From Arthrobacter zhaoxinii (GTDB lineage: Bacteria; Actinomycetota; Actinomycetes; Actinomycetales; Micrococcaceae), in contig NZ_JANFLT010000006.1 in the NCBI RefSeq assembly GCF_024385505.1, positions 496,001-560,000 of the forward strand: 64,000 bases of DNA, in the 5' to 3' direction. Under the pieces are notes generated by a model. It worked only from the letters and a program-made list of their open reading frames with translations. It had not been told where the DNA came from and made no database searches. Within the stretch, counting starts at the first letter, position 1; every line of letters starts with the position of its first letter. Shown in pieces: positions 1,207-31,069 of the stretch. A program made the translations under genes and the position numbers.

Positions 1207-2660
1207 GGACCAATCAGCTAGGACGTCGGCCTGCCCCCGTTTCCGGCGGCCCCGGGGCTGACACGCGGCCCGGCGTACGCACCGCCGTCGCGCTTGTGGC
1301 CTTTCTGCTGTTCGCCGTGGTCTTTCCGTTGGAGATCCGGGATGCCGGGGCCGTCTATTTCACCGACGCCGACTTCCTGATCCGCTATGCCGTGGCGCTC
1401 TATGCGGCCGTGAAGCTTGCACTGCTGCTGTGGCACAGCGACATACGCCCCATGGCTGCGGTGTTTTGGATTTTCGTCTACACCGGCATGGGACTTGCAC
1501 CGTTGGCCCAGCTGACCACCGGCCGTTCCACGGCCGTGGCCGTGCAGGTGGACGACGTTGCACTGACAACAACCAGCCTGCTCACGTTGGTGGGATGCGT
1601 CTGTTTTGACGTCGCCTACCACCTGAGGCTGCGCAAGCACGGACGCGAACCGCAGCTGCGGTTCCGGACGCTGCGCAGCATGGACGTGCTGCGCGTTTTC
1701 TCGGTAGCGGCAGTGGTGGCCGCACTGGTTTACGTCGTCCAGGCAGGCGGCCTGTCGGTGTTCTTCCTCAGCCGCCAGGAAGCAGGCCATGCGCTGGATG
1801 AAATCAGCCCTGACAGCGGGCATGCCCTGCGCGCCATCATTTCCTCTGCCGGGTCAGTCGGCTGCCTTACGGCGCTGATCTTCTACCTGCATGTCTGGCG
1901 CACCCGCGACCGCGCACTGGCTGCAGTGGACGGTCTCCTTATGGCTGCGCTTCTGGCGATGAACATTGTGGTCAACAATCCCGTTTCGAATTCCCGTTAC
2001 TGGACGCTCGCGGTGCTCTTTGGCCTGATGCTGCCCCTGATCCGCGGGCGGAAGAACTTGTTCAACGCTGCGGTGGTCGGGGGAGTCATAGCGTCCATCG
2101 TCATTTTTCCCTTGTCGGACATTACCCGCCGGGCGGGCGGACAGGGGACGCCGGTGAACCTCGACTCGGTCTGGATCGTTATTGCCACTAAGGATTACGA
2201 CCAGTTCACCATGCTCGCCAACACCTTGGCCTATACCGATAACAACGGCTTCTCCTGGGGTCTGCAGGCCCTGGGGCCGCTCCTGTTCTGGGTGCCGCGC
2301 GTCATCTGGGCCAATAAACCGCTGGACACCGGAGTTGAGGTGGGCCAATGGATGAACAGCGTCAACCTCAACCTTTCGGCGCCGCTGTGGGCCGAAGCCT
2401 GGATCAACTTCGGGCTGCCGGGCCTGATCCTGGTGTTCGCCGCGCTGGGCATGCTGTCACGGCGCCTGGACTCGGGGTTCAGGGCAGAAATCCTGAGCAA
2501 GGGGGCGGTCGGATACCTGGGCATTTCCATTCTCGCCGGGTACCTGTTCATTCTCCTGCGCGGGTCGCTGCTGCAGTCCATGGGCCGGCTCATGATCCTG
2601 GTACTTTCGGTCGCGATCCTGACCGCTGTCACAAACCGCCGAGAAAGGCTCCAGCCATGA
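1203..2660 (+). CDS. Wzy-like O-antigen/exopolysaccharide polymerase
   Basis: Integral membrane protein of 485 aa with about a dozen hydrophobic segments. It probably polymerises lipid-linked repeat units on the outer face of the membrane. Family-like features are NNPVSNSRYW in a mid-protein loop and FWVPRVIWANKPLDTGVEVG near residue 360, as in O-antigen polymerases of the PF14296 type. I chose ATG 1203 rather than an earlier in-frame ATG (1152) because it makes an exact ATGA overlap with the upstream glycosyltransferase stop, the coupling used throughout this operon. The gene in turn overlaps the next one by 4 bp. Polymerases are poorly conserved, so the role rests on topology, these motifs and the flippase two genes downstream. 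Confidence 0.8.
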   Translation: MRTNQLGRRPAPVSGGPGADTRPGVRTAVALVAFLLFAVVFPLEIRDAGAVYFTDADFLIRYAVALYAAVKLALLLWHSDIRPMAAVFWIFVYTGMGLAPLAQLTTGRSTAVAVQVDDVALTTTSLLTLVGCVCFDVAYHLRLRKHGREPQLRFRTLRSMDVLRVFSVAAVVAALVYVVQAGGLSVFFLSRQEAGHALDEISPDSGHALRAIISSAGSVGCLTALIFYLHVWRTRDRALAAVDGLLMAALLAMNIVVNNPVSNSRYWTLAVLFGLMLPLIRGRKNLFNAAVVGGVIASIVIFPLSDITRRAGGQGTPVNLDSVWIVIATKDYDQFTMLANTLAYTDNNGFSWGLQALGPLLFWVPRVIWANKPLDTGVEVGQWMNSVNLNLSAPLWAEAWINFGLPGLILVFAALGMLSRRLDSGFRAEILSKGAVGYLGISILAGYLFILLRGSLLQSMGRLMILVLSVAILTAVTNRRERLQP

Positions 2661-3517
2661 GTCAAACCCTCCCGCAGACTCGGGCCACCTTTCGCGAGTC
2701 GTTCAACCAGCTGAAGCAGGCACAGAAAACCCGCAAGGGAGCCCCGCTGTACCTGCTGTACGTCAACCGACCGGCGGGCCGGGCCGTGGCAGCGGCCCTA
2801 AGGCACACGCGGCTGACGCCCAACCATGTCACCCTGGCCGGTGCGGTGTGTACCTACGGCTCGCTGGTTTGGCTAGCCTTTGGAGCCGCGGCCGATCTAT
2901 CGTCGGCACTGGTGGGAGCGCTGCTGGTGGTGGGATACATCCTTGATTCGGCCGACGGACAGCTGGCGCGTCTGCAGGGCACCAGTTCCGCCTTCGGCGA
3001 GTGGCTCGACCATGCACTGGACAACGGCCGGATTACGGTCATGCACGTGGCTGCCTTTTGCTTCCTCGCGCGCACCACCGACTACGACCACATTCAGCTG
3101 GCCGCCGTGTGTGGACTGTTTTTGCTCTCCAGCTCCTGCATTTTCTTCGGCGGTGCCCTGCTGGATCAGCTGCGCAAGAATCCCCGTGCGCCGAGGGGTG
3201 CTAATGCACGGCCTTCGGGGAACGCCGCTGCACCGTCGATGCCTGCTGCCGCGTTTGCCGCAGCCGCAGGCGGGGACGCGAACAGGGACTCGGGCCGGGC
3301 CGAAAACCGCCGCGCAAACCGGGCTGACAACCGCCGGATGCTGATGCGGTCAGCTGTAACCCTGCCGGTGGATTACGGCATGACCTGCCTGGCGTTTCTG
3401 CTGCTGCCCTGGCCCCGGGTGTTCCTGGCGGCCTATCTGGTGCTGGCGGCAGCACACGTGCTGATGGCCGCGGCGTTCCTGCCGAAATGGCGTTCCGAGC
3501 TCCTGGCGCTGGGTTAG
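2657..3517 (+). CDS. CDP-alcohol phosphotransferase family membrane enzyme
   Basis: 286 aa membrane protein that should transfer a phospho-alcohol from a CDP-linked donor to an acceptor alcohol. The full family signature DG(x)2AR(x)8G(x)3D(x)3D is intact: D97, D100-G101, A104-R105, G114, D118 and D122, with the four Asp expected to bind metal. Hydrophobic segments flank it, and a charged insert near 180-220 (repeated Asn-Arg-Ala) is probably cytoplasmic. ATG 2657 overlaps the polymerase stop by 4 bp. The acceptor is unknown. Its place inside a Wzx/Wzy operon, plus a TagD-like CDP-polyol synthase at 10536, suggests it works on a glycan or glycolipid rather than in housekeeping phospholipid synthesis (inference). 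The gene at 20002 belongs to the same subfamily. Confidence 0.88.
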   Translation: MSQTLPQTRATFRESFNQLKQAQKTRKGAPLYLLYVNRPAGRAVAAALRHTRLTPNHVTLAGAVCTYGSLVWLAFGAAADLSSALVGALLVVGYILDSADGQLARLQGTSSAFGEWLDHALDNGRITVMHVAAFCFLARTTDYDHIQLAAVCGLFLLSSSCIFFGGALLDQLRKNPRAPRGANARPSGNAAAPSMPAAAFAAAAGGDANRDSGRAENRRANRADNRRMLMRSAVTLPVDYGMTCLAFLLLPWPRVFLAAYLVLAAAHVLMAAAFLPKWRSELLALG

Positions 3518-4753
3518 GTGGGGGGATTCCGCCGGCTGGTCACCTTCGCGGACCAGGGCGTTTCCAGTGTTTCCAATTTTGTGGCGGTGGCGGTGGCAGC
3601 CAATGTGGCAGGTGCCTCCGAGTTTGGCCAGTTTTCACTGGCCTATGCCGGCCTGCTGTTGTTTCTGGGGGGCCAGCGGGCCCTGGTGGGGGAGACCCTG
3701 CTGGTGCGGTATTCCCAAACCGGCAAACTGACCCGGGATGTTGCCTCGGCCAGCCTGGGGGCCACCCTGCTGGTGGCATTGCCTGCCGTCATGCTCCTGC
3801 TGGCCGGGGCGGTCCTCTCCGGTGCAGAGAACTCCCTCGTATGGCTGGTGATGGCGGCGGCGTCGCCGTTTGTGCTGCTGCAGGACAGCATCCGATACCT
3901 GTTCATCTGCCAGGGGCGGCCGGCGCTGGCACTCCTGATCGACGGACTGTGGGCGGGAGGGTCCATCAGTGCGATGCTGCTGGCGGCTCAGTCCGGCAGC
4001 GCGCTGTGGGCAGTCCTGGCGTGGTGGGGTGCAGGTGCTGCCGCCGCGCTCGCGGCCGGCCTCATCATTGCCCGCAGCGTCCCGGCTGTTCCTGCCGGCG
4101 TCCGCTGGCTGCTGCTCAATAGGGACTTTGCTTTCCGCTACCTTGCTGAATTTGCAGCGCTCAATGCCTCCACGTTTGGTGTGCTGTATTTTCTCGTGTT
4201 TCCGCTGGGTGCGGCGGGGGTGGGTGCGCTTAGGGCAGCGCAACTGCTCTTTTCTCCCTTGAACACGGTGTTCAGTGCGATCAAGACAGCAGTCATTCCC
4301 GAGCTGGTCCGGACTCGGGGGACCGGGGCGTTCCGCAGCAGGCTGCTCGAGACCTTCGTTCTTGTACTAGTCCTGTGTGTGGGGTGGGCCGCGGCCGTTC
4401 TGATGCTGCCGGCATCCGCCGGCGAGTTTGTGCTGGGGGAGACCTGGCACAATGCCTCAGACCTGCGCTGGCCGTACGCGGTTCAGTACCTGGCCATGGT
4501 CCCGTATACGGTTCTTCTCGCTTACTTCCGGGCCGTCCAGGTCAACCGGCTGTCCACGCTGATGCGCGGGGTTCTGGCTGTCCTGACTCTTGTACTGCCG
4601 CTGGCCCTGGCCCTGGGCGGATCTGCCGCCGCCTCGGCGTGGGGCTTCACCGGTGCGGTCGCTATTGCTGCGGTATGCGGGCTGGTTGCGGTACGCGTGG
4701 CCCGAGTCCGTTCCGCGCGGCCTGCGGCGGGCGCTCTCGAACCTGTGGATTAG
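3518..4753 (+). CDS. Wzx-like polysaccharide flippase
   Basis: 411 aa polytopic membrane protein of the MATE/PST export type with 10-12 hydrophobic segments. It probably flips an undecaprenyl-linked repeat unit across the membrane. The N-terminus (FRRLVTFADQGVSSVSNF followed by AGASEFGQFSLAYA) is typical of the polysaccharide-biosynthesis exporter family. The GTG start lies immediately after the TAG of the CDP-alcohol phosphotransferase with no gap. It is the last gene of the left operon and is followed by a strong hairpin terminator shared with the convergent BY-kinase gene. Wzx proteins diverge fast, so the call rests on topology and on the polymerase two genes upstream. Confidence 0.82.
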   Translation: MGGFRRLVTFADQGVSSVSNFVAVAVAANVAGASEFGQFSLAYAGLLLFLGGQRALVGETLLVRYSQTGKLTRDVASASLGATLLVALPAVMLLLAGAVLSGAENSLVWLVMAAASPFVLLQDSIRYLFICQGRPALALLIDGLWAGGSISAMLLAAQSGSALWAVLAWWGAGAAAALAAGLIIARSVPAVPAGVRWLLLNRDFAFRYLAEFAALNASTFGVLYFLVFPLGAAGVGALRAAQLLFSPLNTVFSAIKTAVIPELVRTRGTGAFRSRLLETFVLVLVLCVGWAAAVLMLPASAGEFVLGETWHNASDLRWPYAVQYLAMVPYTVLLAYFRAVQVNRLSTLMRGVLAVLTLVLPLALALGGSAAASAWGFTGAVAIAAVCGLVAVRVARVRSARPAAGALEPVD

Positions 4754-4766
4754 CCGCGGACAAGGG

Positions 4767-4820
4767 AAAAGCCTTCCGGGTGATGCGCTTCTGAAGCTGC
4801 ACACCACCCGGAAGGCTTTT
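4767..4820. terminator. Bidirectional rho-independent terminator
   Basis: A perfect 16-bp inverted repeat (arms 4767-4782 and 4805-4820), with an A-tract on one side and a T-tract on the other, lies between convergent genes ending at 4753 (+) and 4891 (-). A second GC-rich hairpin (4855-4881) lies between it and the minus-strand gene and may help on that strand. Confidence 0.9.
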
Positions 4821-4890
4821 GTTGTTCCCCGTTGTCCGGGACGGCTCCCGGAACGGACCCGGCCCGTAGCGAGCCGGGTCCTTGCCCGGG

Positions 4891-6342
4891 TTATCCCTTG
4901 CTCAGCGCCCTGCTGTTCTGGCTGTCCCGGACAATCGCGGCTTCTGCTTCGGCCACGGGAGAGGCCGGACCGCCGTCGTTGTCGCGGATGACGGGCAGCG
5001 GCGTGACGCCGTAATCGGAGAGGTAGGCGGAGTTGGCATCCGGGCCGGAGCGCGGAATGCGGTTGAGGACCGCTCCCACCACATTCGCGTTCACCAGGCT
5101 TAGCTGCTCCACAGCCTTGGAGAGGTTGTGCTGGCTGACCCGGGTTGCTCCGACGACCAGCAGGATGCCATCGGTGTGGCGGGTGAGGATCGCGGTATCG
5201 GCCACCGGCAGCACCGGCGGAGCATCCAGAATCACCGTGTCGTATTCGGCTTCGAGTTCTTTGACCAGTTTCTGCATGGCATCGGAGCCGAGCAGCTCGG
5301 TGGGATTCGGCGGCAGCGGTCCGGAAGTCAGCACCGACAGGCCGCCGGTGCCCCAGTGCTGGGTTGCCTCGGCCAGGCTGGTGCGCCCGATCAGCACGGT
5401 GGTTAGGCCAACGCTGCCTTCCAAGCCGGTGGCGCTGGACACCGAAGGGAGCCGCAGATCGGCGTCGACCAGGATTACCCGCTGCCCGCTTTGCGCGATG
5501 CTCAGGGCCAGGTTCAGGGCGACGGTACTCTTGCCCTCACCCGCCTGCGAAGACGTGATCACCAGCGACTTCATCTGCTGGCTGACGGCGGCAAACTCCA
5601 GATTGGTCCGCAGCTGCCGGAAGGCCTCGGTTCCCGCGCCACCCAGGATGGTCGGGCGGCTGGTGTGCCGCGTGGATTCGGTAATCCCGCCGAGCAGCGG
5701 CAGATCGGTGGACTTGCGCAGATCGGCCTCCGTGCGGACATGGCGGTCCAGGACATGGCGGAGGATCGCCACAACCAGCCCGAGGGCGAGGCCGTACAAC
5801 AGTCCCAACGCCAGGTTCAACGGTGTCTTGGGACTGGAAGCGGACGACGGCGGCTGGGCCGTGTCTACCGAGGTGAGGCGCATGGGGGAGGGCAGTCCGT
5901 TGGTGGGCCGCTCCAGATCAGCAACTGAGGTGATCAGGCTGGCCACCACGCCGTTAGCGATATCCGCCGCACGCTGGGGTGAGGAATCCACCGCCTGGAT
6001 TTCGATCAGGACGGTGTTGCGGGAGGTCCCTGCCTTGACCTTGGTGGCCAGCTCCTGGGGCGTCATGTCCAAGTCAAGGTTCTCAATGACCGGGTTCAGG
6101 ACCTGGGGCATGCTGACCAGCTCCACGTAGGACCCGACCCGGTTCAGGGAGAAGACGCTGCCCTGCTGGAGTTCGGCGGAGGTTTCAACATTCTGGGTGG
6201 AGACAAATAGGTTGCTAGTGGCGGTATAGGTTTTGGGCATCAGTACGGAAATAGCTCCGGCGCTGATCAACCCGATGAGTGCAAATGAGACTATGAGCAT
6301 CCAATTGCGGCGAAGGATGAGTATTTGTTCGCGCATATCCAT
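4891..6342 (-). CDS. Chain-length determinant / bacterial tyrosine kinase (Wzz-BY-kinase fusion), set A
   Basis: 483 aa inner-membrane co-polymerase fused to a cytoplasmic tyrosine autokinase; such proteins control exopolysaccharide chain length. The Wzz domain has TM1 near 14-35 and TM2 near 176-195. The kinase has Walker A SSQAGEGKST (about 264-273), the Walker A' VILVDADLR and a Walker B-like VILDAPPVLPVADT. The C-terminal tail is not tyrosine-rich; only NSAYLSDYG near the end offers tyrosines. The ATG at 6342 follows a GGAAGGGG ribosome-binding site; a second ATG two codons later is possible. It is the last gene of a minus-strand set with the lipoprotein and beta-propeller genes. Two paralogues lie at 29597-31069 and 47575-49050. 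Confidence 0.92.
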   Translation of the reverse strand: MDMREQILILRRNWMLIVSFALIGLISAGAISVLMPKTYTATSNLFVSTQNVETSAELQQGSVFSLNRVGSYVELVSMPQVLNPVIENLDLDMTPQELATKVKAGTSRNTVLIEIQAVDSSPQRAADIANGVVASLITSVADLERPTNGLPSPMRLTSVDTAQPPSSASSPKTPLNLALGLLYGLALGLVVAILRHVLDRHVRTEADLRKSTDLPLLGGITESTRHTSRPTILGGAGTEAFRQLRTNLEFAAVSQQMKSLVITSSQAGEGKSTVALNLALSIAQSGQRVILVDADLRLPSVSSATGLEGSVGLTTVLIGRTSLAEATQHWGTGGLSVLTSGPLPPNPTELLGSDAMQKLVKELEAEYDTVILDAPPVLPVADTAILTRHTDGILLVVGATRVSQHNLSKAVEQLSLVNANVVGAVLNRIPRSGPDANSAYLSDYGVTPLPVIRDNDGGPASPVAEAEAAIVRDSQNSRALSKG

Positions 6343-6404
6343 TGGTTACCCCTTCCCGTGGATAGGCAGATGATGGAAACAGAAAAAGAAGCTGCAGGTG
6401 GACG

Positions 6405-7142
6405 TCATGAACGGAACCACGTGTAGCACTGGTCCGATTCCACACGTGCAGCGTCAGCGCCGATAGTGACCGGAGCGGACCCGTCGTGAGACCCGAGGAG
6501 TTCCCCGGAGCCGGTGTAGACCGTGATGAGACAGCCCTCGGGCTGCCCGTAGGCCCGGTAGATCCCGGGCGCAATCGAGGGTTGCTCGCCGTGAGGCGCA
6601 GCCGCTCCTACCGAGAAGACTCCATCGGGGAAGCCCAGCTTGGCCGCTTCCAGGACGGGCAGGAGCTCAGGGCACAGTGCGGCGACGGCGTCGGCGGTGT
6701 CCCGCGCCGGGCTCATGATGAGCTCGCTGAGGACCGACTCTTCGTCAATCGCCCTGGCGCTGAGCAGCTGATCGCAGCGTTCCTGGCCAACCTGCAGTAC
6801 AGCGTTGGGATCACCGCCTTCGGGCACCTTGTCCTGAAGGTACTGCTCCTGCTCCGCCTCGAATGTCGGTTCCGGTGCCGGCTGGGGCGACTGCACCACG
6901 GCATCGGGCGCCGTCCCGGTCCCCTCGGCAGCGGACGTTTCGGGCGCGCTGGTCGGAACAGCGGTTCTGCTGCTTCCCGGTGCGGCCGACGACGACGGCT
7001 CGCCGGATGAAGCGGACGATGACGGTGAAGCTGACGGCGGCGCTGCTTCGGGTGAGCTGTCGGGGGAACTGCATCCTGTTGCCATACTCAGCATCGGCAA
7101 CAGCAGCATTCCCAGGAGTGGTGGCTTGAGACCGGTTTTCAT
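6405..7142 (-). CDS. Putative lipoprotein with Ser/Pro-rich linker
   Basis: 245 aa, start ATG with AGAAGG upstream. The N-terminus is a type II signal peptide ending in ATGC, the likely lipidated Cys near residue 24. A 60-70 residue Ser/Pro/Ala-rich stretch follows, as in proteins that cross the wall. The folded C-terminal part has several Cys and ends with a module (PGIYRAYGQPEGC to SDQCYTWFRS) that resembles the short actinobacterial 'PGTYR...CYW' modules of exported proteins. Function unknown. It lies 62 bp after the beta-propeller gene and 62 bp before the BY-kinase on the same strand, so co-transcription is likely and a role at the surface in glycan assembly or attachment is inferred. 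Confidence 0.7.
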   Translation of the reverse strand: MKTGLKPPLLGMLLLPMLSMATGCSSPDSSPEAAPPSASPSSSASSGEPSSSAAPGSSRTAVPTSAPETSAAEGTGTAPDAVVQSPQPAPEPTFEAEQEQYLQDKVPEGGDPNAVLQVGQERCDQLLSARAIDEESVLSELIMSPARDTADAVAALCPELLPVLEAAKLGFPDGVFSVGAAAPHGEQPSIAPGIYRAYGQPEGCLITVYTGSGELLGSHDGSAPVTIGADAARVESDQCYTWFRS

Positions 7143-7204: not shown

Positions 7205-10200
7205 TTAGGGGCCGAAGACCAGTGTCAGGACCGGCCGGCGGCTGGAGGACGCTTCCTTTGTGTAAAACCAGGCATTGTCGGTGCCTGCGCCGGTGATCGC
7301 CAGGTCAACGGACTCGGACAGTGCGGCTGAGACAGCTGCGGGATCCAGGTCCACGGAGTAGGCGGTGTTCGTCGCCGTCGGCGAGACGGTGCCCAGCACC
7401 GCGCTGCCCAACGTCGGCCGGGTGTTGTAGGTGGTGCCCGCTTCCGTCCAGGCTCCGGTCGCCGTTTGGACACTGTGCCGGTCAACGGAATTGCTGAGGG
7501 GATCGGAGGTCGTGTACACCCGCAGGCTGGCCGAAATCAGTCGCATTCCTGCCGGCACGGCGGTGCCGGGAGTAAACCTCAGGTACGAGGTATAGGCCTG
7601 CGAGCCACGTGACGCCATGGACGTAGACGTTCCATAAGCCGCATTGGGAGCACTCTGGTTCACATAGGTGTCTGCGGTCGGGGACAGGGACAGGGTCACC
7701 GGTTCGGCCGGAGGAGCGCCGGCGACAGTGGCGCTCGCCTCGTCGGACGCCGCGCCGGCATTCCCGGCGGCATCGATGGCCACCACCCGGTAGTAGTAGG
7801 TTCCCGGTTCCAGATCCGCATCACTGTAGGAGAGCGCCGAACCGGGGGAGGTGGTCAGCAGGCTGCTGTCCGACGGCGTGAAACCTCTCGTCACCGACCG
7901 GTGGATCCGGTACCCGGTGACGCCCACATTGTCGGTGGCGGTATTCCAAGTGAGCGTGGCCGTGGTGCCGCTGACCGTGGCCGACGCACCGGACACGCCG
8001 CTGGGTGCGGTGGTGTCGGGAGCCGGTTCCGGCTCAGCGGGACTTCCCCCGCCTGCGGTGTAGTGCTCGGTTACCTGGGCGGTGCTGATGGCCACGGGGT
8101 AGGCCGCGAATTCGTCGATGGACCCGGCCAGGTAATTGCTGGTGGGCCGTTCGGGCCAGTTGTTCAGGCTGTCGCCGCCCACCCGCCAGGAGCCGGTGTA
8201 GGTTTGTGCGGCGGCTGTCGGACTGGTGGCCACGGCAATGCCGTCCACGTACAGCGTGAAGCCCGAAGCGGTCTGGACTGCCGTTGCGTGGTGCCACGCG
8301 TTGTCGTTGTAGGCCTTGGCGGTGCTGACGCTGACCGGGGTGTTGGCCGCATTGAGGACACCGTAGGCCAGTGTCCCGCCGGTGGTCATATACAGGTGGC
8401 GGTCCACGATCCCGCTGGAGTTCCGGTCGCCGTGGCGATTGGGCTGGCCGGAAGCGAAGCCGAAGATCTTGCCGCCGCGCACTGTGTCGGTTTTGAACCA
8501 GACCTCGGCAGTGTAGATGGTGGGAGCAGCGTACCGCTGCTGTCCGGAGACCTGGTCGTCGACGCCGTCAAACACGCCTGCCGTGCTGCCGGGTACGGCG
8601 CCTTCGGTGCCGGCCAGGAGGGGACCCGCGTAGGCAATGCCCCGGTTGTTGCCCGTGGAGGTGTCTGCCGGAGCGGTGGCGCGGCTGTCGTCGAGCCGCC
8701 AGTATGTGGAGGCACCGTCACGGAGCACCGAAGCAGGGTAGGGCTGGGTGGCCGTGGCAGTGGTGACGGAAACCTGCGCGGAGAGGGCGCTTGTGCTGGA
8801 GCCATCGCCTGCCCTCACCCGGTAGGAGTAGGCAGTGCCCGGCACCGCTGTGCGGTCGGTGAAGGACAGCTGGGGTGTGTTGAACCAGGTGGAGTTGCCG
8901 GTCACGGTGCCGAGTGCGGTGCTGCTGCCGTTGCGGTAGATGCTGTAGGTGAGGGCGGAGTCGTCATTGTCCACGCTTTGGGTCCAGCGGATCTGGTTCT
9001 GGCCGGCGGCGAAGCTGACTGCGCTGACGTTGGCCGGCGTGCCGGGAGCGGCGGATGCCGGCCCGGGACCGAAGCGGGTCAGGCTCTGCTGAGCGGTGCC
9101 GTTGGTGGTGGTGAATTCACCGGCAACCCACAGGACATCGCCGCTGCCCGTGCCGGTGGTCTCCAGTGCCCGCGGGCCCAGGGCTTCCCCGGTGCCGTCA
9201 TTGGTGTCGGGGCTCCAGCCGAGGAACGGGTACGGATCGTTGATGTCCTGGGCGGAGAGGTGCTTGCGGGTGCCGTCGGGGAAGCCATCCATGCTGGAGC
9301 AGTCGTGGACGTGGTGCCCGGAGTAGAGCACGTCCTTGTAGGGCAGCACCGCCTGGGTGGCGCCCTGGCAGGTGTCTTTCCAGATCTGCTCGTAATTGTT
9401 GTCCAGGGAAAGCCGGGCCCGGCCGTCGAAGGACCTTGATCCCAGGCCCTCACCGGCGACGTAGAAGCTGGTGCCGTCGCTCGTCACGTCCTTGACCACG
9501 GCCGTGGCGGGGATGTAGCCGGCTGAGGGATACGTGCGCACATTGGCACCGGAGGCCTTGTCCACCACGGCCATCGCCCGCGATTCGGCGCCGTTGACAG
9601 TGCTGAAGTCCCCGGAAACCAGAACCACGTTCCTGCCCGCCGGGACGTCGAGGGCACGGCCCACGCCGTCAGCCGCCGGCGCCCACGGAAGCAGGCTGCC
9701 CGTGGTGCCAACGGCTGCGAAGCGGTTGCGGGCGGTGCCGTTGACAGTGGTGAAGTCACCGCCGAAGTAAACGGCGTCGTCGGTGGCGGCGACGGTCCGC
9801 ACCGTGCTGTTCACCGTGCCGGGCCGGAAGGAGGTGTCCACCGTGCAGTTCGGAAGGTTGATGGCGGCCAGCCGGTTCGCGGCGACGCCGTTGACCGTGG
9901 TGAAATTTCCGCCCACGTAAAGCCTGCGGCCATCGGGGGAAACATCCATGGCCCGCACCGTGGCGCCCGTTCCGCCGGTGAAGGACAGTGCGCATGAGGT
10001 GGGCGTGCCCGTATAGGCATCAAAGGCTGCGAAGTTGACTGCTGCCCGGGACTGGCTGTTGCCGGCCGCGGTGCCGGGGGGCCGCACGGAGGTGAAGGTG
10101 CCGCCGACGTACATCACGCCGTTGGCCTCCGCCATGGCCCACGCAATGCCGTTGGTCTGCCAGGTGGGGAGCGCGGCGGCAGAGAAAGCCACGCCCGGGG

Positions 10201-10535: not shown

Positions 10536-10988
10536 ATGACAGTTCGGATTGGCTATGCCTCGGGTGTTTATGATCTCTTTCACGTCGGCCATCTGAATTT
10601 GTTGAAGCATGCCCGCAGCCAATGCGACTATCTGATTGCAGGCGTTGCCTCCACTGACATGACCCAGCGGCTCAAGGGAACCACTCCGGTGATCCCCCTT
10701 GCCGAGCGGCTGGAGATCGTGCGCAGTGTCCGCTATGTCGACGACGTGGTCATTGATGAGCACCTGAATAAGGCCGACACATGGCGTGAAGTGGGATTCA
10801 ACGTGTTTTTCAAGGGCGACGACTGGCGGGGCACCGAAAAAGGCGACCGCCTGGAACGCGACATGGCTCAAATAGGAGTGCAAGTGGTGTATTTCCCCTA
10901 CACGGTGACCACCTCCTCCACCGCGCTGCGCCGTGCCCTGACCCTGCTGGAGGGCGGCCGCACCGGGGACGCAGCCCTGAAAGCATGA
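10536..10988 (+). CDS. TagD-like cytidylyltransferase (CDP-polyol synthesis), copy A
   Basis: 150 aa cytosolic nucleotidyltransferase of the glycerol-3-phosphate cytidylyltransferase type. It should activate a polyol phosphate with CTP to give CDP-glycerol or a related CDP-alcohol. The HxGH signature is H16-V-G-H19 after YDLF; FFKGDDWRG is near 91-99, and a TTSST segment near 125-129 stands in for the RTxGISTT nucleotide loop. The ATG follows GGGGG at suitable distance. It is divergent from the beta-propeller gene and overlaps the next gene (GDPD lipoprotein) by 4 bp. The CDP-alcohol phosphotransferase at 2657 could use its product. The exact alcohol is not visible. A paralogue is at 18354. 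Confidence 0.87.
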   Translation: MTVRIGYASGVYDLFHVGHLNLLKHARSQCDYLIAGVASTDMTQRLKGTTPVIPLAERLEIVRSVRYVDDVVIDEHLNKADTWREVGFNVFFKGDDWRGTEKGDRLERDMAQIGVQVVYFPYTVTTSSTALRRALTLLEGGRTGDAALKA

Positions 10989-24218: not shown

Positions 24219-25571
24219 TCACCGGGAGGGGTCTCCGGCTTCGGACGGGGACCCCTCCTCTGCGTCCTGCACAGGGCCGGGAACGCCTTCGGACGTTTCT
24301 TGCCGGCGATGCCGTCTTCGGGCCAGGTCACGGTGGACGTACCAGAAATTCGGCAGCACCTGGCAGAGAGCAACGGACACGGCGGAACCGATGATCGGTC
24401 CGCCGGCGCCCACCACCCCCACCAGCCACCAGGACAACCCCAGATTCAGCGGAACCATAAGCAGAATGGGAGCGACCTGGAACCACAGACCTTTCTGGTC
24501 CGTCATGTACATGCCCAGCGGGTACTTGGCCGCCTGCAGTCCGGTAAAGGCGGCGAACCCAAGAACCAGGGGAAGATCCAGGTGGATCTGCCCGGAGGAG
24601 ATAAACCCGGCAAGCCAAGGGGAAGCCAGGGCCAGGCCACCCCCAAGCAGTACCCCTCCGGTCAGGAAGGCGAGGGTAGGTCCGGCCGGGGATTCCACGT
24701 GCCCTTCGCGGCGTGCGAGGGCATAGACAGGCCACAAAGCCAGCCCCGCGGCAGCGATTGTCTGCAGGACCAGGCCATACAACTGGGAGGCGAGGTTGTA
24801 GGCGGCCAGCGCGTCAACCCCCGCTAAATGACTGAGCAGCAGGCGGTCGGTCTGCATGGCGATGGGAAGGGCCACCATCTGAATCAGCATGGGAAGGGCT
24901 GTGCCGGCCACGGGCACCCCCCGGTAGGAGCGCACACGCCACACCCGCCGCAGCGCCGTTCCCAGCTGGGGACGGGTATGCCGGTGGGCGATCACCAGAC
25001 AGATGACGGACACGAGTCCGTTGCCGGCATAAGAAAAAACAGCCAGGAAATTTCCGGCCGGAAGGGAGAGGGCGATGACCGAGGTAATGCACAGCAGCAT
25101 GAACGGCGCCACCACCACCTGCGCTGCAACCTGGCTCGTCGTCCTGCCCAGGCCCACGAGGATCCTTTGCCCAACAACCAGCGGCAGGCACACCCCGAAC
25201 AGGGACAGACACAGGAAGGCTGCTGTGTTCCCTTCGCTGCCCGTGACCGCGCTGCCAAGCAGCAGCGGCCATGCCTTGAGCAGGGTGATTGCCGCAGACA
25301 GGCAGATGAGGACAAAGCCGGCACCAAACAACACCCGCAGCGCTGTTACCAGGGTCCGGGTAACATCCTCGTCGGTCCGCACAGCCTTGGACCCGGCAAC
25401 CGCGTTGATGACTACTGCCGCTATGCCCAGATCGGCAAATGGCAGCAGCGACGGAAAGGAGGCAAGGAGGCCGTATTGTGCGTACGCCGACGTACCGAAG
25501 TCCTGGATGATCAAGCGGCTGGTCAGCACTGCCAGCAGGCCCGACGAGCCCATGACCAGGACTTTGACCAC
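24219..25571 (-). CDS. Wzx-like polysaccharide flippase, set B
   Basis: 450 aa polytopic protein of the MATE/PST exporter type, with about 12 hydrophobic segments and a charged C-terminal tail. N-terminal SRLIIQDFGTSAYAQYGLLASFPSLLPFADLGI is typical of oligosaccharide flippases. The GTG start at 25571 is the only usable one. The in-frame codons before it (NSALKAVGSTAV) look like a natural flippase N-terminus but contain no ATG, GTG or TTG before a stop, and the ribosome-binding site is weak. The true start may therefore be a rarer codon, or the 5' end may be damaged. Divergent from the polymerase at 25791. Confidence 0.78.
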   Translation of the reverse strand: MVKVLVMGSSGLLAVLTSRLIIQDFGTSAYAQYGLLASFPSLLPFADLGIAAVVINAVAGSKAVRTDEDVTRTLVTALRVLFGAGFVLICLSAAITLLKAWPLLLGSAVTGSEGNTAAFLCLSLFGVCLPLVVGQRILVGLGRTTSQVAAQVVVAPFMLLCITSVIALSLPAGNFLAVFSYAGNGLVSVICLVIAHRHTRPQLGTALRRVWRVRSYRGVPVAGTALPMLIQMVALPIAMQTDRLLLSHLAGVDALAAYNLASQLYGLVLQTIAAAGLALWPVYALARREGHVESPAGPTLAFLTGGVLLGGGLALASPWLAGFISSGQIHLDLPLVLGFAAFTGLQAAKYPLGMYMTDQKGLWFQVAPILLMVPLNLGLSWWLVGVVGAGGPIIGSAVSVALCQVLPNFWYVHRDLARRRHRRQETSEGVPGPVQDAEEGSPSEAGDPSR

Positions 25572-25790
25572 CGCTGTGCTGCCGACGGCCTTGAGGGCTG
25601 AATTCTTGAGGTTCCTCGTTGTTCCCTCCGCCCAAGCGTCGACTGTGGGACCTGCCGGCCGCTCGCCATGATGTCAGGCGGTACGTGTGCTTTCCATAGG
25701 TACTCGGGCGGGCTGCTAAGTACCTATTGGCAATCGGAAGCAGCGGCGTACATTGGGCCCGGCAGCGGCGGAGTGAACAGGGGGGACCGG

Positions 25791-27197
25791 ATGCCCGAAC
25801 GTGTTGGGACGGGCTGGCCGACGAAGGTACTCGAGGGGGCGTGGCCGGGCCGTTCGACGCTGCAATGGACGGACGGCGACGCCGCCAGAGGCTGGGCGGT
25901 CCTGGAACGCGTGGCAGCAGTAGCCGGTCTTCTGATCCTCGGCCTGCGAATCAACCTGCCGCAGGGACTCACGGTGGGATATGCCTTCGCGTTGGCCTTC
26001 GCCCCGGTATGGCTGTCTGTGGTTCGGCGGTACCGCTGGGCCCCGACAATGTTTGTGCTCGGCGTCCTGATGCTTCTCTCCGGGTTTGTCCTGACCGCCC
26101 TGTCGGCCCAGACCCACACCATCAGTGTCCGCACCCTTTCCGGCCAGGTTTTCCTGCTCATCGGGACACTGGCGGGGGCCGGGTTCATGCTGTGGACACG
26201 GTCCGTGATCGGAGTCCGTTGGACCGTTGCTGTATACGCCGTCGGGCTCCTGCTTGGTGTTTCCCCGAACGGGGCCCTCTACGATTCGAATCCATGGAAG
26301 TACGGTTACGCCGCCGCTGCAAGCGTTTTGATACTCAGCCTGGCGGGGGTAGTCCGGCGCCGTTGGGGTGAATTACTGGTACTGACTGTCCTAGCCGTGG
26401 TCTCTTCGCTAACGGATGCACGGTCCGCCTTCGGCCTGCTGCTGCTGACTATCCTGGCCGTGGCATGGCAGATGCGCCCGGCGCACCCAAAGCGCAGCAT
26501 CAATGCAGCAAGCACTGCTTTGGCTGTGGCGGGCATATTTGTGGTGGTGTACAACCTCGGGAGGGCGCTTATCCTCGACGGATACCTGGGCCAAACCACT
26601 CAGCAGCGCTCCATCCAGCAGGTTCACGACGCCGGTTCGCTGTTGCTGGGGGCACGCCCTGAACTGGGGGCAACCGTGGCGCTAATGGAACACCAGCCGC
26701 GGGGATTCGGACTGGGTGCTGTGCCGAATCTGCAGGAAATCCTGATCGGCAAGAGCGGCATGATCCGGCTTGGATACCAACCCAATAACGGATATGTAGA
26801 GAACTACATGTTTGGTTCCTCGTTTGAGCTGCACTCCATTTTCGGAGACCTGTGGGCGCATTACGGGGTGGTGGGCGTGGCAGCTTCCATCCTGTTTGTC
26901 ACCGCAGTGGTGGTTCGGCTGGTCTCTTTCATCTCGACAGGCAAAGCCAGCGCCGTCCTGGTTTTCGTGGCTGCACAGGCTCTATGGAATGTCGCCTTTT
27001 CCCCCCTGTACAGTTCCGCGGCTTTCCTGATGCTGCTGCTGGGACTTTTGTGGGAGGAGCGTAGCCCTAGGACCTTTGCACTGAACGGAATTCCAGTGGC
27101 TCGGCGGCCTTATACGCTTTCCACAGGGAGAAATGGCCGCCGCGGTACTGGGTATCCTGGGCAGAGACGGAGCTCTCCCCGCCATCGTGGCCTATGA
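25791..27197 (+). CDS. O-antigen ligase/polymerase-like membrane protein, set B
   Basis: 468 aa with about 12 hydrophobic segments and a large loop (about 270-375) that carries PRGFGLGAVPNLQEI and NGYVENYMFGSSFELHSIFGDLWAHYG, as expected for Wzy_C/WaaL-type proteins. It probably polymerises or ligates lipid-linked glycan outside the membrane. I start at ATG 25791, preceded by AGGGGGG, rather than at an in-frame ATG at 25668. The 3' end runs about 130 bp into the convergent GDPD gene; the last 40 residues are basic and not membrane-like, so the C-terminus may be extended by loss of an earlier stop. Confidence 0.78.
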   Translation: MPERVGTGWPTKVLEGAWPGRSTLQWTDGDAARGWAVLERVAAVAGLLILGLRINLPQGLTVGYAFALAFAPVWLSVVRRYRWAPTMFVLGVLMLLSGFVLTALSAQTHTISVRTLSGQVFLLIGTLAGAGFMLWTRSVIGVRWTVAVYAVGLLLGVSPNGALYDSNPWKYGYAAAASVLILSLAGVVRRRWGELLVLTVLAVVSSLTDARSAFGLLLLTILAVAWQMRPAHPKRSINAASTALAVAGIFVVVYNLGRALILDGYLGQTTQQRSIQQVHDAGSLLLGARPELGATVALMEHQPRGFGLGAVPNLQEILIGKSGMIRLGYQPNNGYVENYMFGSSFELHSIFGDLWAHYGVVGVAASILFVTAVVVRLVSFISTGKASAVLVFVAAQALWNVAFSPLYSSAAFLMLLLGLLWEERSPRTFALNGIPVARRPYTLSTGRNGRRGTGYPGQRRSSPRHRGL

Positions 27198-28515
27198 CCG
27201 TTACGGTCACGACGCCCGCGGCCATTCTCGCCGAGACCTTCATCCAGCGGCCTCTGTATGAACGGGTAGCAGGCGCCTCATCCAGTGGCACCGAGCTGCC
27301 GTCGGGACCCAGCTTCAGGAGCACGATGCGCCCCACGGGATAAACCAGCACAGCGTAGCCGTCACTCGGTGCGCCGTCGGCTACGGGTCGGTCACTGCCC
27401 TGCGCGAAGGCCAAACCCGCGCAGTCTTCATCTTGGGGCTTGCCCGGCCAACGCATCTGGAAGCTGATCGACAGCTCCTCTGACGGCAGCTCGGCCATTG
27501 AGCCCATCTGGTAGACCACCTTGTGGCCCTGCTCGAACCGCAGGGAGGCCCTGGCTGGCAGGATTTGCGGCTGCGCGGTCCAGACCAGCGGGTAGGGCAG
27601 GTCTCCCGGGGTCCGCGACCCGGAAGTGAACTTGTCCGTAGCTGCAGGGGCATCGGGGAAAGCCACGTACAGGATGTTTGAACACATCATCCCCTGTACG
27701 CCCAAGCCGGTCAGGCGGTCCCTCATCCAGCGCTGATGTACTTCCCAGCAGATGACCGGTTTCCCGGCTGCAACCACCCGGCTTATGACATCGTCAGGGG
27801 CCCGGTGATAAATCCCCAGATAGTCCAGTAACGGCACGCTCTTGGTGAAGGTTTCCTCGTCGATCTCTGCGAAATAGCCCCACACTTGGTAGCCGCGCTC
27901 GCGGCATTCACGCGCCGCCTTCGCGGATTCGCCCGGCATCTTGATGATGACATGTTGGCGGGCGTTGGGATATGCGGAAAGGACGTCAAGCAGCAGCGCT
28001 GTGTTCTTGCCAGTCTTGTCCTCGATGAAGAGCACATGGGAGGCAACGTGCGCGTCCAGGATGTCGGTGAGCTTGGGGATAGGCAGCAACGGCGTGCTGG
28101 GACCCAGCCAGGCCCGGGCATCGGTACGCAGCTCTGCAACCTGGTCGTAGGTCATTTGTTCGATTTCGCCGGGCACCCCGGTCAGCCGGGCCGTATCCCG
28201 GTCGTGATGGCATACGAACACCCCGTCCTTTGTCGGCACAGTGGACACTTCAATGGCTTTGACGCCGGCGTCAATGGCGTTGGCGTAGGCCTCGGCCGTG
28301 TGCTCCGTCCAGTTGTCCCCGGATCCCCGGTGCGCGATATAGAACGGCGAGGAGCTGAAAAGGTCGTCAATGTTGTATCTGGGCAGTACCGTCGCAGCAG
28401 GCTGTTGACGTACGCAGCCCGCCAATACCAGCGCGCCGGCGGACGCGGCAAACAACTGGCGGCGGGAAAGCAGCGGATGGACAGCATGGGCGCCGGCTGG
28501 GATCGTCGGCATCAC
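27067..28515 (-). CDS. GDPD-family lipoprotein with C-terminal lectin-like domain, copy B
   Basis: 482 aa paralogue of the protein at 10985. It has a twin-Arg SRRQLF stretch and lipobox LVLAGC (C34), followed by a GDPD barrel with AHRGSGDNWTEHT (H62, R63, E71) and CHHDRDTARLTG (H103-H104-D105). Like copy A it has E89-V-S91 in place of the usual ExD metal pair, and MCSNIL in place of TDxP. The last about 150 residues form the same beta-rich domain (ISFQMRWP, YRGGHFSLWKAYK). It overlaps the upstream glycosyltransferase by 4 bp and follows the BY-kinase in one minus-strand operon. Substrate unknown; an extracytoplasmic role on glycerophosphate-type bonds is inferred. Confidence 0.8.
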   Translation of the reverse strand: MMPTIPAGAHAVHPLLSRRQLFAASAGALVLAGCVRQQPAATVLPRYNIDDLFSSSPFYIAHRGSGDNWTEHTAEAYANAIDAGVKAIEVSTVPTKDGVFVCHHDRDTARLTGVPGEIEQMTYDQVAELRTDARAWLGPSTPLLPIPKLTDILDAHVASHVLFIEDKTGKNTALLLDVLSAYPNARQHVIIKMPGESAKAARECRERGYQVWGYFAEIDEETFTKSVPLLDYLGIYHRAPDDVISRVVAAGKPVICWEVHQRWMRDRLTGLGVQGMMCSNILYVAFPDAPAATDKFTSGSRTPGDLPYPLVWTAQPQILPARASLRFEQGHKVVYQMGSMAELPSEELSISFQMRWPGKPQDEDCAGLAFAQGSDRPVADGAPSDGYAVLVYPVGRIVLLKLGPDGSSVPLDEAPATRSYRGRWMKVSARMAAGVVTVTVIGHDGGESSVSAQDTQYRGGHFSLWKAYKAAEPLEFRSVQRS

Positions 28516-29597
28516 ATACTCCTGAAGAGCCAGTGGTCGGCAGCCAGGCGGCCGTCTACGGGCGGCAGGGATGACTGTACGAGGGCTGGGGGCAGCGGTG
28601 CCGCGGCGATGCCCGCCATGGCCTGGGCCAAATCCTCCGGGGAGTAATCAGCCGGCAGAACCCTGTGCCCATGCTGATGCAGCCAGGATGCCAGGCCGGT
28701 TTGGTCCGTTGTGACGATGCTGCAGCCGTGTGCAAGGCCTTCAACAATGGGCAGTCCCACCTGCTCCCGCCAGCCGGGAGTGGATCTGGAGGGGAGCGCA
28801 AGCACTTGATGCGTCAGCAGTTCCCGGTGAATGACGTCACGCGGGGGATCGGCGACAAAGCGGACACGCGGATCAGCGCGGGCAAGGTTCCGGGCGGCGG
28901 TAGACAGGCGCCCGGTGCCAATGATTGTCAGGTGGATTGCAGGCATGCAGAGCCGTACCCGGGCCCATGCCTGCAGCAGGAGGTCGAAGCCCTTCCGTTC
29001 TGAGAGGGCGCCCAAATACAGAAGGGTTCCGGGTGTCTTTTCCGGCCTCTGGGCACACGGGCAGGACGCAGGCAACGCTTCGACCAGTTTCTGGTCGAGG
29101 CGGACCCGCGGCGGCATGATCTGCTGATAGAGCGTGCGGGAGGCAACAGTCCCATAGGCGATCCGGTCGAGACGCTGCCACAAGGCTCGGGACAGGGCCG
29201 CGTTCAATACCAGGCCAGGGCGCTGACGGAGGCTGGCGGGCGGAGGGCCGAACGGATTCCGGTTCTCAATGGCGTAGCTGACTACCAGGGGGCGGTAGCC
29301 CATCAGCCTTCCGCGCAGGCAGGCAACGGCCACCGCCACGGCGGTACGCCGCGCGCTGGCCAGCATAAGCGGTTCGTTGATTTCGATTTCCCTGACCGTG
29401 GAACGTGCCATTAGGCACACCGTACCGAAGGTGTCCGCCCGAACGAGGTGCAGGCCCTGTGCTATGGTTTCGTCGAAGTCATAGCGTCGAGAGGCGTACA
29501 CCAGCGACGCCGCCGGCAAGGTCCGTGCTCTCTCCATGTGGGCTGTCCTGAGCGTTTCGTAGAGTCGAACCCTCTCCAGCAACAGCGCCCCTGCCAC
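28512..29597 (-). CDS. GT4-type glycosyltransferase, set B
   Basis: 361 aa GT-B glycosyltransferase. The C-terminal donor-binding half is clear: LLYLGALSERKGFDLLLQAWARV, then ALPSRSTPGWREQVGLPIVEGLAHGCSIVTTD with the conserved Glu-x7-Glu geometry. The N-terminal acceptor domain is divergent. The GTG start shares one base with the TAG of the BY-kinase gene upstream, and the stop overlaps the GDPD gene by 4 bp. All three are therefore translated from one message. Sugar donor unknown. Confidence 0.84.
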   Translation of the reverse strand: MAGALLLERVRLYETLRTAHMERARTLPAASLVYASRRYDFDETIAQGLHLVRADTFGTVCLMARSTVREIEINEPLMLASARRTAVAVAVACLRGRLMGYRPLVVSYAIENRNPFGPPPASLRQRPGLVLNAALSRALWQRLDRIAYGTVASRTLYQQIMPPRVRLDQKLVEALPASCPCAQRPEKTPGTLLYLGALSERKGFDLLLQAWARVRLCMPAIHLTIIGTGRLSTAARNLARADPRVRFVADPPRDVIHRELLTHQVLALPSRSTPGWREQVGLPIVEGLAHGCSIVTTDQTGLASWLHQHGHRVLPADYSPEDLAQAMAGIAAAPLPPALVQSSLPPVDGRLAADHWLFRSM

Positions 29598-31069
29598 TAG
29601 CGTCCTGAATCCGCGGCCGACCGGGCCTTGCCATCGGTCTGTGCTGGCTCATCGGGTTGTTCGGACGAGCGCCAGGACCGGGGTTCCGTCGGCGGTACCC
29701 AGGCCTCTGCTCCGGGCTTACCCACTCCGGAGTCGGGATAACTGCCGTAGTAGGTGCTTCCGAGATCTGCATCGGCCATGGTGAGCACCACTCCAACCGT
29801 GCTCGCCCCTACGTTTTCCAGTGCTGCCTGCGCCCGTGCCAACTGCTGGCGCCGGGTCTTGCGGCGCCTGGCAACAAGCAGGGTGCCCTCGGCAAGCCGT
29901 GCCAAGGGGAGGGCATCAGCTACCGGAAGGATAGGAGGGGAATCGATCACAACGAAGTCGTACCGGGCAACCAGGTCCCTGACGATCGACGCCATGGTGT
30001 TGGAGCTCAGTAGCTGGGTGGGGTTAGGCGGTACCGGCCCGGAGGGGAGGATGTCCACTCCGCTCCAGCGTTCGATGGCTTCCTCCGCTGATGCGTTTCC
30101 GGATAAGACAGTGGTCAGTCCAACGTCTCCCTGGATGCCGCAGTACGGGGCGACGGCGGGACGGCGCAGGTCAGCATCTATGAGCAGCACCCGGTTTGTG
30201 TGTTCTGCTACGGCAAGGGCCAGGTTGATGGCAATGGTGGTTTTTCCTTCACCGGGCATTGGAGAGGAGACCAGGATGGACTTGAGCTGGCGGTCCGGAT
30301 CGATGTACTCCAGATTCGTGGCCAGCAGGCGGTATGACTCTGCGACGTGGCTGTGGGGATTGCTGCGCATCGCCAACTGGCTCGACTTCTTGTTGCGGTT
30401 CCGGGAAACGGAGGCAATAACAGGCAACTTGGTGACTCGCTCAATGTCCGTGGAGTTCCGCACCCGCGTATCCACCAGCTCCCGGCCAAGGGCGACGAGC
30501 ACGCCGAGGACAAGCCCGCCGAGGAATCCCAGGGAAAGCAGCAGCCTGATGTTCGGTTCAAACGGAGCCCCGGGAGTCTGTGCCCGGGTGACGACCGTCA
30601 GCTCAATGGGCGGCCGCTGGTCCTGCCCCACGGCCGGCGACAGTTCCGCCACAGTCTCCGACAGTGAAGCCGCCACACTGTTGGCGATCTCGGCAGCTCC
30701 TTCAGCGGACGCATCAACCGCCTTGATGTCGATAAGCACGGTATTCAGCGGTGTTTCCGCCGTGACGTGCGAGGCGAGAGTCTGTGCCGTCGTCTCCAGA
30801 TCGAGGTCTTCGATGACGGGGTCCAAAACCTTGGGCGTCGTAACCAGTTGGGTGTAGGACTGCACGATGTTTTGGGTGTAAGTGGAGCCTTGGACGAGTT
30901 CCGAAGTGGTTTGTCCACGGTCCACGGACACGAACACGCTGCTCGTGGCGCGGTACGAGGCGGGGGTCAGGGCTGCGGTCCCCAGTCCGACGAGAATGCC
31001 CGCGACGGCGATACAGAGAATCAAGAGCCACTGATTGCGCATCGCTGCTACGTAGTCCCGAAGTTCCAT
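29597..31069 (-). CDS. Chain-length determinant / bacterial tyrosine kinase, set B
   Basis: 490 aa Wzz-BY-kinase fusion. The start MELRDYVAAMRNQWLLIL (ATG 31069, AGAAGG site 5 bases upstream) aligns with the N-termini of the two paralogues; an in-frame ATG at 31117 would add 16 unlikely residues. It has two transmembrane helices around a periplasmic-type loop, Walker A SSPMPGEGKTT, Walker A' VLLIDADLRRP and Walker B VVIDSPPILPVADA. Tyrosines in the tail are limited to GSTYYGSYPDSG. First gene of a minus-strand operon with a glycosyltransferase and the GDPD lipoprotein. The divergent tyrosine phosphatase gene at 31240 is its likely counter-enzyme. Confidence 0.92.
   Translation of the reverse strand: MELRDYVAAMRNQWLLILCIAVAGILVGLGTAALTPASYRATSSVFVSVDRGQTTSELVQGSTYTQNIVQSYTQLVTTPKVLDPVIEDLDLETTAQTLASHVTAETPLNTVLIDIKAVDASAEGAAEIANSVAASLSETVAELSPAVGQDQRPPIELTVVTRAQTPGAPFEPNIRLLLSLGFLGGLVLGVLVALGRELVDTRVRNSTDIERVTKLPVIASVSRNRNKKSSQLAMRSNPHSHVAESYRLLATNLEYIDPDRQLKSILVSSPMPGEGKTTIAINLALAVAEHTNRVLLIDADLRRPAVAPYCGIQGDVGLTTVLSGNASAEEAIERWSGVDILPSGPVPPNPTQLLSSNTMASIVRDLVARYDFVVIDSPPILPVADALPLARLAEGTLLVARRRKTRRQQLARAQAALENVGASTVGVVLTMADADLGSTYYGSYPDSGVGKPGAEAWVPPTEPRSWRSSEQPDEPAQTDGKARSAADSGR

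Follow-up and report, generated by a model that had tools for sequence, protein, structure and literature searches.

Two surface-glycan gene sets in one window

The stretch analysed here, the window, comprises 64,000 nucleotides of Arthrobacter zhaoxinii (NZ_JANFLT010000006.1, positions 496,001-560,000; genome 3.5 Mb). Two Wzx/Wzy/BY-kinase regions occupy its first part (1-31 kb), and both contain a TagD-like cytidylyltransferase, a CDP-alcohol phosphotransferase (CAPT), a glycerophosphodiester phosphodiesterase (GDPD) lipoprotein and a secreted beta-propeller protein. We scanned window proteins against Pfam and NCBIfam and compared the paired genes of the two sets by BLASTP; Rfam and tRNA scans of the window gave no matches. 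TagD and CAPT emerge as the core of these sets, and the parts together may form a module that decorates the Wzx/Wzy surface glycans of actinobacteria with a phospho-alcohol.

In set A, CAPT A (2657..3517, forward; PF01066 42 bits, cut-off 22) has the full catalytic motif and a G-E-xx-D-H dyad. It stands between an oligosaccharide repeat polymerase-like membrane protein, WzyA (1203..2660, forward; 11 hydrophobic segments; TIGR04370 34.6 bits, below the cut-off of 40, and PF14296 sub-threshold), and the weakly assigned, flippase-like WzxA (3518..4753, forward; 8 hydrophobic segments; no Pfam or NCBIfam match at E 0.01). On the reverse strand follow a BY-kinase fused to Wzz, the chain-length control part (4891..6342; TIGR01007 181 bits, cut-off 108), and propeller A (7205..10288), a secreted protein in which Pfam recognises beta-propeller, fn3, LamG and CBM96 domains. 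The forward strand then carries TagD A, a predicted phospho-alcohol cytidylyltransferase (10536..10988; PF01467 61.4 bits), and GDPD A (10985..12466; PF03009 80.9 bits, cut-off 23.6), an RR-signal lipoprotein with a predicted GlpQ fold and a lectin-like domain, and with ExS where ExD would be expected. Four-base-pair ATGA overlaps join Wzy to CAPT and TagD to GDPD.

Set B opens, on the forward strand, with TagD B (18354..18785; PF01467 43.2 bits), a Cps2T-like glycosyltransferase of family GT4 (18782..20005; DUF1972 77 bits; NF046071 183.6 bits, below its cut-off of 500), CAPT B, which also has the dyad (20002..20799; PF01066 38.1 bits, cut-off 22), a small protein (20810..21559) that is secreted or membrane-anchored and has a single hydrophobic segment at its N-terminus and, directly after it, the secreted propeller B with its PKD domain (21556..24174; Rax2 43.9 bits, PKD_4 78.9 bits). 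Here the ATGA overlaps link TagD to GT4, GT4 to CAPT, and the small protein to the propeller. The set continues with flippase-like WzxB (24219..25571, reverse; 11 hydrophobic segments; PF01943 22.4 bits, below the cut-off of 28.2) and polymerase-like WzyB (25668..27197, forward; start uncertain; 9 hydrophobic segments), whose 3' end overlaps the gene of GDPD B (27067..28515, reverse; PF03009 85.8 bits), which has the same ExS signature as GDPD A. A second GT4 glycosyltransferase (28512..29597, reverse; PF13692 66.6 bits) and a BY-kinase fused to Wzz (29597..31117, reverse; TIGR01007 157 bits, against the same cut-off) complete it. WzxA and WzyB are named from position and hydropathy, with no Pfam or NCBIfam match at the thresholds used; their hydropathy fits, and both kinase scores are those expected in a Wzx/Wzy locus.

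A reading of this DNA from its letters alone, the sequence-only reading, had located both sets, and each indeed holds all five families where it placed them. It had also described the sets as made of the same parts and as whole-set relatives. The first description holds for the five paired families (BLASTP identity between A and B: TagD 58%, CAPT 33%, GDPD 40%, propeller 34%, kinase 42%) but not for WzxA and WzxB or WzyA and WzyB, which show no BLASTP similarity at E 1e-3 and whose family assignments are weak. The second is right in that the five pairs are old homologues, but not in the sense of a recent duplication of the whole set, which we rejected: gene trees were built for these five families (one FastTree run each, interpreted from distances and with no support values; Wzx and Wzy lie outside the trees), and in no tree do the set A and set B copies group as sisters. 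The nearest relatives of all five set A genes are Arthrobacter loci L008-L012, and those of the set B copies vary by gene. The sets look like two old versions, one preserved as a block and one a mosaic.

TagD and CAPT occur and travel together

We counted these genes in 149 genomes of the same order (64 genera) and 246 genomes of the phylum. In the order, TagD was found in 38 genomes, CAPT in 40 and both in 37 (Fisher 2.6e-30, uncorrected for relatedness), and about 21-22 of the genera have a match. The TagD figure sets aside nine weaker matches, which takes it from 41 to 38 genomes; keeping all 41 gives four genomes with TagD and no CAPT instead of one. The two genes share a contig in 36 of the 37 genomes and lie within 20 kb of each other in 33, at a median distance of 1.75 kb. 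Across the phylum sample TagD and CAPT occur in the same five genomes, including that of A. zhaoxinii itself and three of one genus (hypergeometric 1.4e-10).

The propeller was found in 38 of the 149 genomes (threshold E 1e-25) and together with TagD and CAPT in 31. Approached from the GDPD, 46 loci, each at most about 21 kb long, contain, by strict counts, the propeller in 33 (40 with a loose profile), BY-kinase in 24, TagD in 22 and CAPT in 19; the TagD count was 23 before we dropped one match (locus L046), an HldE-type domain. In 24 of these loci a propeller open reading frame (ORF) immediately precedes the GDPD in the same orientation, and TagD is present in 45 of the 46 genomes reached through GDPD. 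By comparison, none of TagD, CAPT, propeller or BY-kinase was found in 18 control loci around canonical GDPDs; these were drawn from ten genomes of the same genus, and since none is a polysaccharide locus they are no control for polysaccharide loci as such.

The sequence-only reading had named repeated co-localisation well above background as support for a system and random co-occurrence as its refutation. Co-localisation is what the counts for the order, the phylum and the control loci show; chance co-occurrence was therefore rejected, and that refutation fails. In our view TagD and CAPT almost certainly work as a single functional unit.

An arrangement of the same kind stands in a plasmid record of the oral actinobacterium Actinomyces oris (NZ_CP116225.1; locus L187), which we reached only through CAPT: it encodes a sugar transferase, a cytidylyltransferase, a flippase, a CAPT and two propellers, annotated only as separate families.

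CAPT carries a Kennedy-type dyad

Both CAPTs belong to their family by score and by the motif D1xxD2GxxAR...GxxxD3xxxD4, in which Ser replaces the Ala in 2 of 32 aligned rows. A G-E-xx-D-H-xx-D stretch with a Glu/His dyad is present in all 51 module CAPTs, whereas the genome's three remaining CAPTs, which we read as housekeeping enzymes, lack the Glu and His. According to the available part of PMC10182977, replacing either dyad residue of Xenopus CHPT1 (xlCHPT1) by Ala nearly abolishes activity, and the dyad is absent from most bacterial members of the family; for CEPT1, the excerpted text of PMC10156783 proposes that the acceptor hydroxyl is activated by one of two histidines, His155 or His197, acting as base. 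Judged by these residues, the catalytic dyad of CAPT is of the choline phosphotransferase type. CPT1 and CEPT1 are among its best solved-structure matches, and at 265-286 residues it is about 100-140 shorter than their chains (380-406). The TagD profile matches ethanolamine-phosphate and glycerol-3-phosphate cytidylyltransferases; taken with the dyad, this makes the pair resemble the Kennedy pathway.

The Kennedy likeness also invites a reading in which the product is a special phospholipid: CAPT would move X-P, a phospho-alcohol, to diacylglycerol or polyprenol, the lipid would serve as glycan anchor or as a donor outside, and the GDPD would remove the head group. The CHPT1 dyad is proposed, in the same portion of PMC10182977, to activate the hydroxyl of a lipid, diacylglycerol; CPT1 and CEPT1 are the matches just named; and GDPD-fold enzymes act on lysophospholipids too (8ghh, 7ymp). 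The surroundings of the genes, however, are those of glycan loci, CAPT A overlapping Wzy and directly preceding the Wzx-like gene and CAPT B overlapping a GT4 gene, and the GDPD bears a lectin-like domain. We consider a phospholipid product possible but doubtful, while giving it more weight than any of the other alternatives below.

The TagD-like enzyme is not a canonical TagD

The TagD equivalog profile TIGR01518 scores the two TagD-like proteins at 67.9 (A) and 65.3 bits against a cut-off of 165.4, and the TagD motif RTxGISTT is replaced by PYTxxTSS(T). We therefore cannot retain the word 'polyol' in the earlier proposal of a polyol-phosphate-modified or lipid-linked surface glycan, although a phospho-alcohol-modified or lipid-linked glycan remains the best idea. 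The label ethanolamine-phosphate cytidylyltransferase was rejected as well: the whole-protein score favours that enzyme because it has two domains, but per domain the TagD type scores 71.2 against 61.6 bits.

If the TagD-like proteins simply made CDP-glycerol for the usual wall teichoic acid pathway, their position in polysaccharide loci would be incidental. Four matches to PF04464 (TagF-type) lie elsewhere in the genome, on contig C3, the module being on C6, and by our reading the six PF01467 matches of the genome include no other stand-alone TagD and no recognisable canonical one; PF04464 and TagD are also associated across the order (28 of 38 TagD genomes, Fisher 5e-4). Yet PF04464 is absent from 10 of the 38 TagD genomes and present in 46 genomes that have no module TagD, compared with 37 of 38 that have CAPT; the exchanged RTxGISTT motif argues in the same direction, and PF04464 was not found among the window proteins scanned. 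A canonical TagD in a teichoic acid locus was rejected on the low TIGR01518 score, the separate contig and the ten carriers devoid of PF04464, and we judge a mere supply of CDP-glycerol to be improbable. Two proteins of this genome (G000:C2; L178 and L179) are, as we read them, HldE-like kinase/nucleotidyltransferases.

The GDPD has an altered calcium site and phage relatives

The AlphaFold model of GDPD A (pLDDT, the model's own confidence score, 93.7) has a GlpQ-like barrel (Z 28.2, root-mean-square deviation 2.2 over 236 residues) followed by a predicted C-terminal lectin-type sandwich whose best match is CBM66 (Z 17.9, deviation 2.3 over 155 residues), with legume-lectin, ERGIC-53 and phage-fibre rows within Z 1 of it. 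An RR motif followed by a lipobox is found in 42 of 43 GDPDs examined, namely the ORFs with the exact string AHRGS, and presumably marks a lipoprotein exported by the Tat route.

GlpQ coordinates calcium through Glu70, Asp72 and Glu152 (PMC7086022, in part). We mapped residues to this numbering by motif in 49 alignment rows, made up of 47 ORFs and the two window copies, where ORF L137 repeats L043. The position of Asp72 is Ser in 48 rows and Tyr in one, compared with Asp in all 18 canonical GDPD controls. All rows keep the His-Arg pair, the first Glu and the second His, and 48 have Glu as third ligand, the remaining one Asp; this conservation argues for an altered rather than a dead enzyme. 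Two ideas were dropped. EHT instead of ENT is no mark of these proteins, as the Staphylococcus aureus GDPD and the phage GP-PDE proteins in the PDB also have EHT, and only ExS is special; and agrocinopine synthase was not used as a precedent for a GDPD that makes phosphodiesters, since PMC3228805, in the portion available, states homology only. GlpQ-type enzymes, one of them membrane-anchored, trim wall teichoic acid, according to the accessible parts of PMC9208761 and PMC7086022.

A tblastn search also found relatives of the GDPD in 13 of 50,697 phage records at E <= 1e-15 and, at E <= 1e-30, in 6 of 72,556 plasmid records, every one of these six from Streptomyces; the one Streptomyces plasmid that we opened is phage-like and has a tape measure gene. 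We took eight phage-type loci from these, 7 of the 13 phage records and 1 of the 6 plasmid records, leaving out the second copies H12, H16 and H19 as well as H9, H17 and H20. ExS is present in seven of the eight (L188-L194), all from actinobacterial phages or phage-plasmids (of Streptomyces, Microbacterium and Clavibacter). Five of these seven, and the eighth, from a Xanthomonas phage, match nearly the full profile including the C-terminal domain. Of the actinobacterial records, two are unannotated; in the other five the gene has tail, tail-fibre, tape measure or lysin genes nearby, and the relatives probably sit on tail proteins. Retention of the enzyme on a phage structural protein would make inactivity unlikely and suggests that the target of this type of enzyme is a surface glycan.

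These phage forms also fit a mainly anti-phage role, in which the host would use a phage-related enzyme to trim the phosphodiester groups that serve as phage receptor. The seven ExS GDPDs from actinobacterial phages or phage-plasmids, five of them with the C-terminal domain, speak for this, as does the patchiness of the host gene, present in 8 of 24 same-genus genomes with one further broken copy. Against it, the GDPD gene overlaps the biosynthetic TagD in set A, and nearly all GDPD genomes (45/46) keep TagD, as expected of a pathway enzyme; we think such a role unlikely. The broken copy (G013:C1:3020358-3021702) looks so because it is split over several frames.

Propellers share an invariant site

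The AlphaFold 2 model of the propeller A domain (pLDDT 94.7) is a WD40-like propeller, a common fold for which a search of the PDB returns many tied rows. All 50 propeller rows share an invariant W..C.G...H.H.C site (residues 303-330 in propeller A), which resembles a metal-binding or active site framed by disulphides; this is putative, and a structural repeat would not need it. Relatives of the small protein that precedes propeller B occur at eight places, one of them weak, in 7 of 41 TagD/CAPT loci.

Attachment of proteins to a phospho-alcohol lipid has been proposed for archaeosortase systems, and the product of CAPT could analogously be a lipid that anchors the secreted propeller. In set B the TagD, GT4, CAPT, small protein and propeller genes form one tightly packed run, and CAPT B weakly matches NF038086, the archaetidylserine synthase of a protein sorting system (27 of 200 bits). 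General family scans found no exosortase or sortase domain among the window proteins covered, however, propeller A has no C-terminal hydrophobic segment, and six TagD genomes have no propeller at E 1e-25. Of the alternatives considered here, this anchoring has the slimmest chance.

Neighbouring genes

The inventory of the sequence-only reading was incomplete: it missed a VanZ family membrane protein (12459..12983, reverse; PF04892 53.2 bits) and a further secreted propeller, C (12987..15383, reverse; LamG and weak fn3), which is 59% identical to propeller A by BLASTP, and the sets are separated by sufS- and sufU-type genes (15562-17337). The VanZ gene follows GDPD A, a placement seen also in L008-L010. 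VanZ proteins have been associated with exopolysaccharide genes in PMC12419801, whose available text does not describe the TagD/CAPT module. L008 and L010 likewise carry two propeller/LamG copies, flanking TagD/GDPD. The sufS-type gene has relatives in 14 of the 46 GDPD loci, and the sufS/sufU site may therefore be a fixed chromosomal location of the island.

Between the kinase and propeller A of set A lies a putative lipoprotein with an Rv1352/Rv1906c-like C-terminus (6405..7142, reverse; NF053833 20.9 bits, below the cut-off of 25), and beyond set B a protein of the low-molecular-weight tyrosine phosphatase family (31219..31893, forward; PF01451 38.3 bits), a likely partner of the BY-kinase. 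A third polysaccharide region (44161-49050) holds a BY-kinase (47575-49050), a Bac_transf initiating sugar transferase (46091-47554) and a DUF4012 protein; the ten proteins that we scanned between 34 and 49 kb include neither TagD nor CAPT.

A possible route to a phospho-alcohol-decorated glycan

Our best reading is that the Kennedy-type pair places a phospho-alcohol on a lipid-linked glycan or a dedicated lipid, and that an optional GDPD trims it outside the cell. Step by step, the TagD-like enzyme, by its family, would convert CTP and an alcohol phosphate X-P to CDP-X, and CAPT, whose catalytic residues are in place, would then transfer P-X from CDP-X to a hydroxyl, most likely that of a lipid-linked oligosaccharide on the inner face of the membrane, by way of its Glu/His dyad. 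Wzx would flip and Wzy polymerise the unit under the control of the BY-kinase/Wzz protein, and the secreted propellers with their lectin-type modules would bind or organise the glycan outside. Where present, the GDPD, to judge from its predicted fold, might use its lectin-like domain to dock on the glycan and its altered calcium site to trim or transfer the phosphodiester; actinobacterial phages would carry relatives, probably on tail proteins, for attack on such glycans. We put the probability of this mechanism as a whole at roughly 0.5. Somewhat below even odds, and so tentative, is the fuller picture of a glycan branch of the Kennedy pathway in actinobacteria, with a dedicated pair, propellers as readers, a Ser-substituted GDPD as eraser and phage relatives as a structural-protein depolymerase.

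Several observations weigh against this route. The acceptor of choline and ethanolamine phosphotransferases is a lipid, diacylglycerol, and the sequence of CAPT gives no indication of a sugar acceptor; only about 85-115 of its residues, the catalytic core, align with CPT1, and archaeal AF2299, which has no dyad, outscores CPT1 in the same search. The TagD-like enzyme falls far short of the equivalog cut-off. One calcium ligand of the GDPD is missing, so the protein may be inactive, and the relative in Xanthomonas phage XacN1 has the same domain layout but Asp. The co-occurrence counts come without a matched control from another polysaccharide gene over the same genomes. Among 20 TagD loci of the order (14-20 kb each), strict profiles found CAPT in 10, BY-kinase in 10 and the propeller in 5 (13 with the loose profile), and four TagD loci outside the order have CAPT in all four, the propeller in one and BY-kinase in none. 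At E 1e-25 the propeller is missing from 6 of 40 CAPT and 6 of 38 TagD genomes; a looser profile found it near TagD or CAPT after all in three of the six propeller-less genomes. No BY-kinase was found in the 31 kb of the Actinomyces oris locus. GDPD occurs in 2 of the 149 genomes of the order (E <= 1e-40) and is absent from most TagD-CAPT genomes, and one of the 46 GDPD genomes, a metagenome-assembled genome, showed no TagD.

The TagD-locus counts, inside and outside the order, therefore leave TagD and CAPT as the firm core. That these two are a real and widespread unit of such loci is well supported; the propeller, BY-kinase and GDPD are frequent but not constant partners, and the GDPD is an optional accessory of the TagD-CAPT module.

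Comparison with known systems

Phosphodiester groups in the surface glycans of bacteria influence charge, the adsorption of phages and recognition by the immune system; the transferases known for such groups are of the TagF, LicD or LtaS type. Literature searches gave no description of the TagD/CAPT/GDPD/propeller gene set among the matches listed. One parallel is found in pneumococcal capsules of the Gct/TagD type, where a CDP-alcohol maker lies inside a Wzx/Wzy locus as in the module. In the phosphoglycerol capsules of pneumococci the transferase is TagF- or LicD-type, whereas in the module it is a membrane CAPT, and the scanned window proteins, as noted, include no PF04464. With the eukaryotic Kennedy pathway the module shares the pairing of a cytidylyltransferase with a CDP-alcohol phosphotransferase that bears the G-E-xx-D-H dyad; unlike that pathway, it is bacterial, lies in polysaccharide loci, has a shorter CAPT and comes with Wzx/Wzy, propeller and GDPD. 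A Kennedy-like unit of two genes within polysaccharide loci, which 37 of 149 sampled genomes of one order possess, would arrive at the same kind of bond by another route.

The GDPD, for its part, resembles Bacillus subtilis GlpQ and pneumococcal WhyD in its TIM barrel, its His/Arg/His residues, its predicted extracellular location and the Glu or Asp at two of three calcium-ligand positions, but differs from them in the Ser at Asp72, the added lectin-like domain, the RR-signal lipoprotein form and its frequent proximity to TagD and CAPT. Its fold also matches gp155 of phage K and the GP-PDE of the phi812 spike, where a GDPD domain ends a phage structural protein; these keep ExD, in contrast to the seven actinobacterial phage forms, which have ExS and five of which share the C-terminal domain. 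That the variant GDPD occurs in hosts and phages alike suggests that phages target the glycan, and the enzyme could be used to probe what that glycan is.

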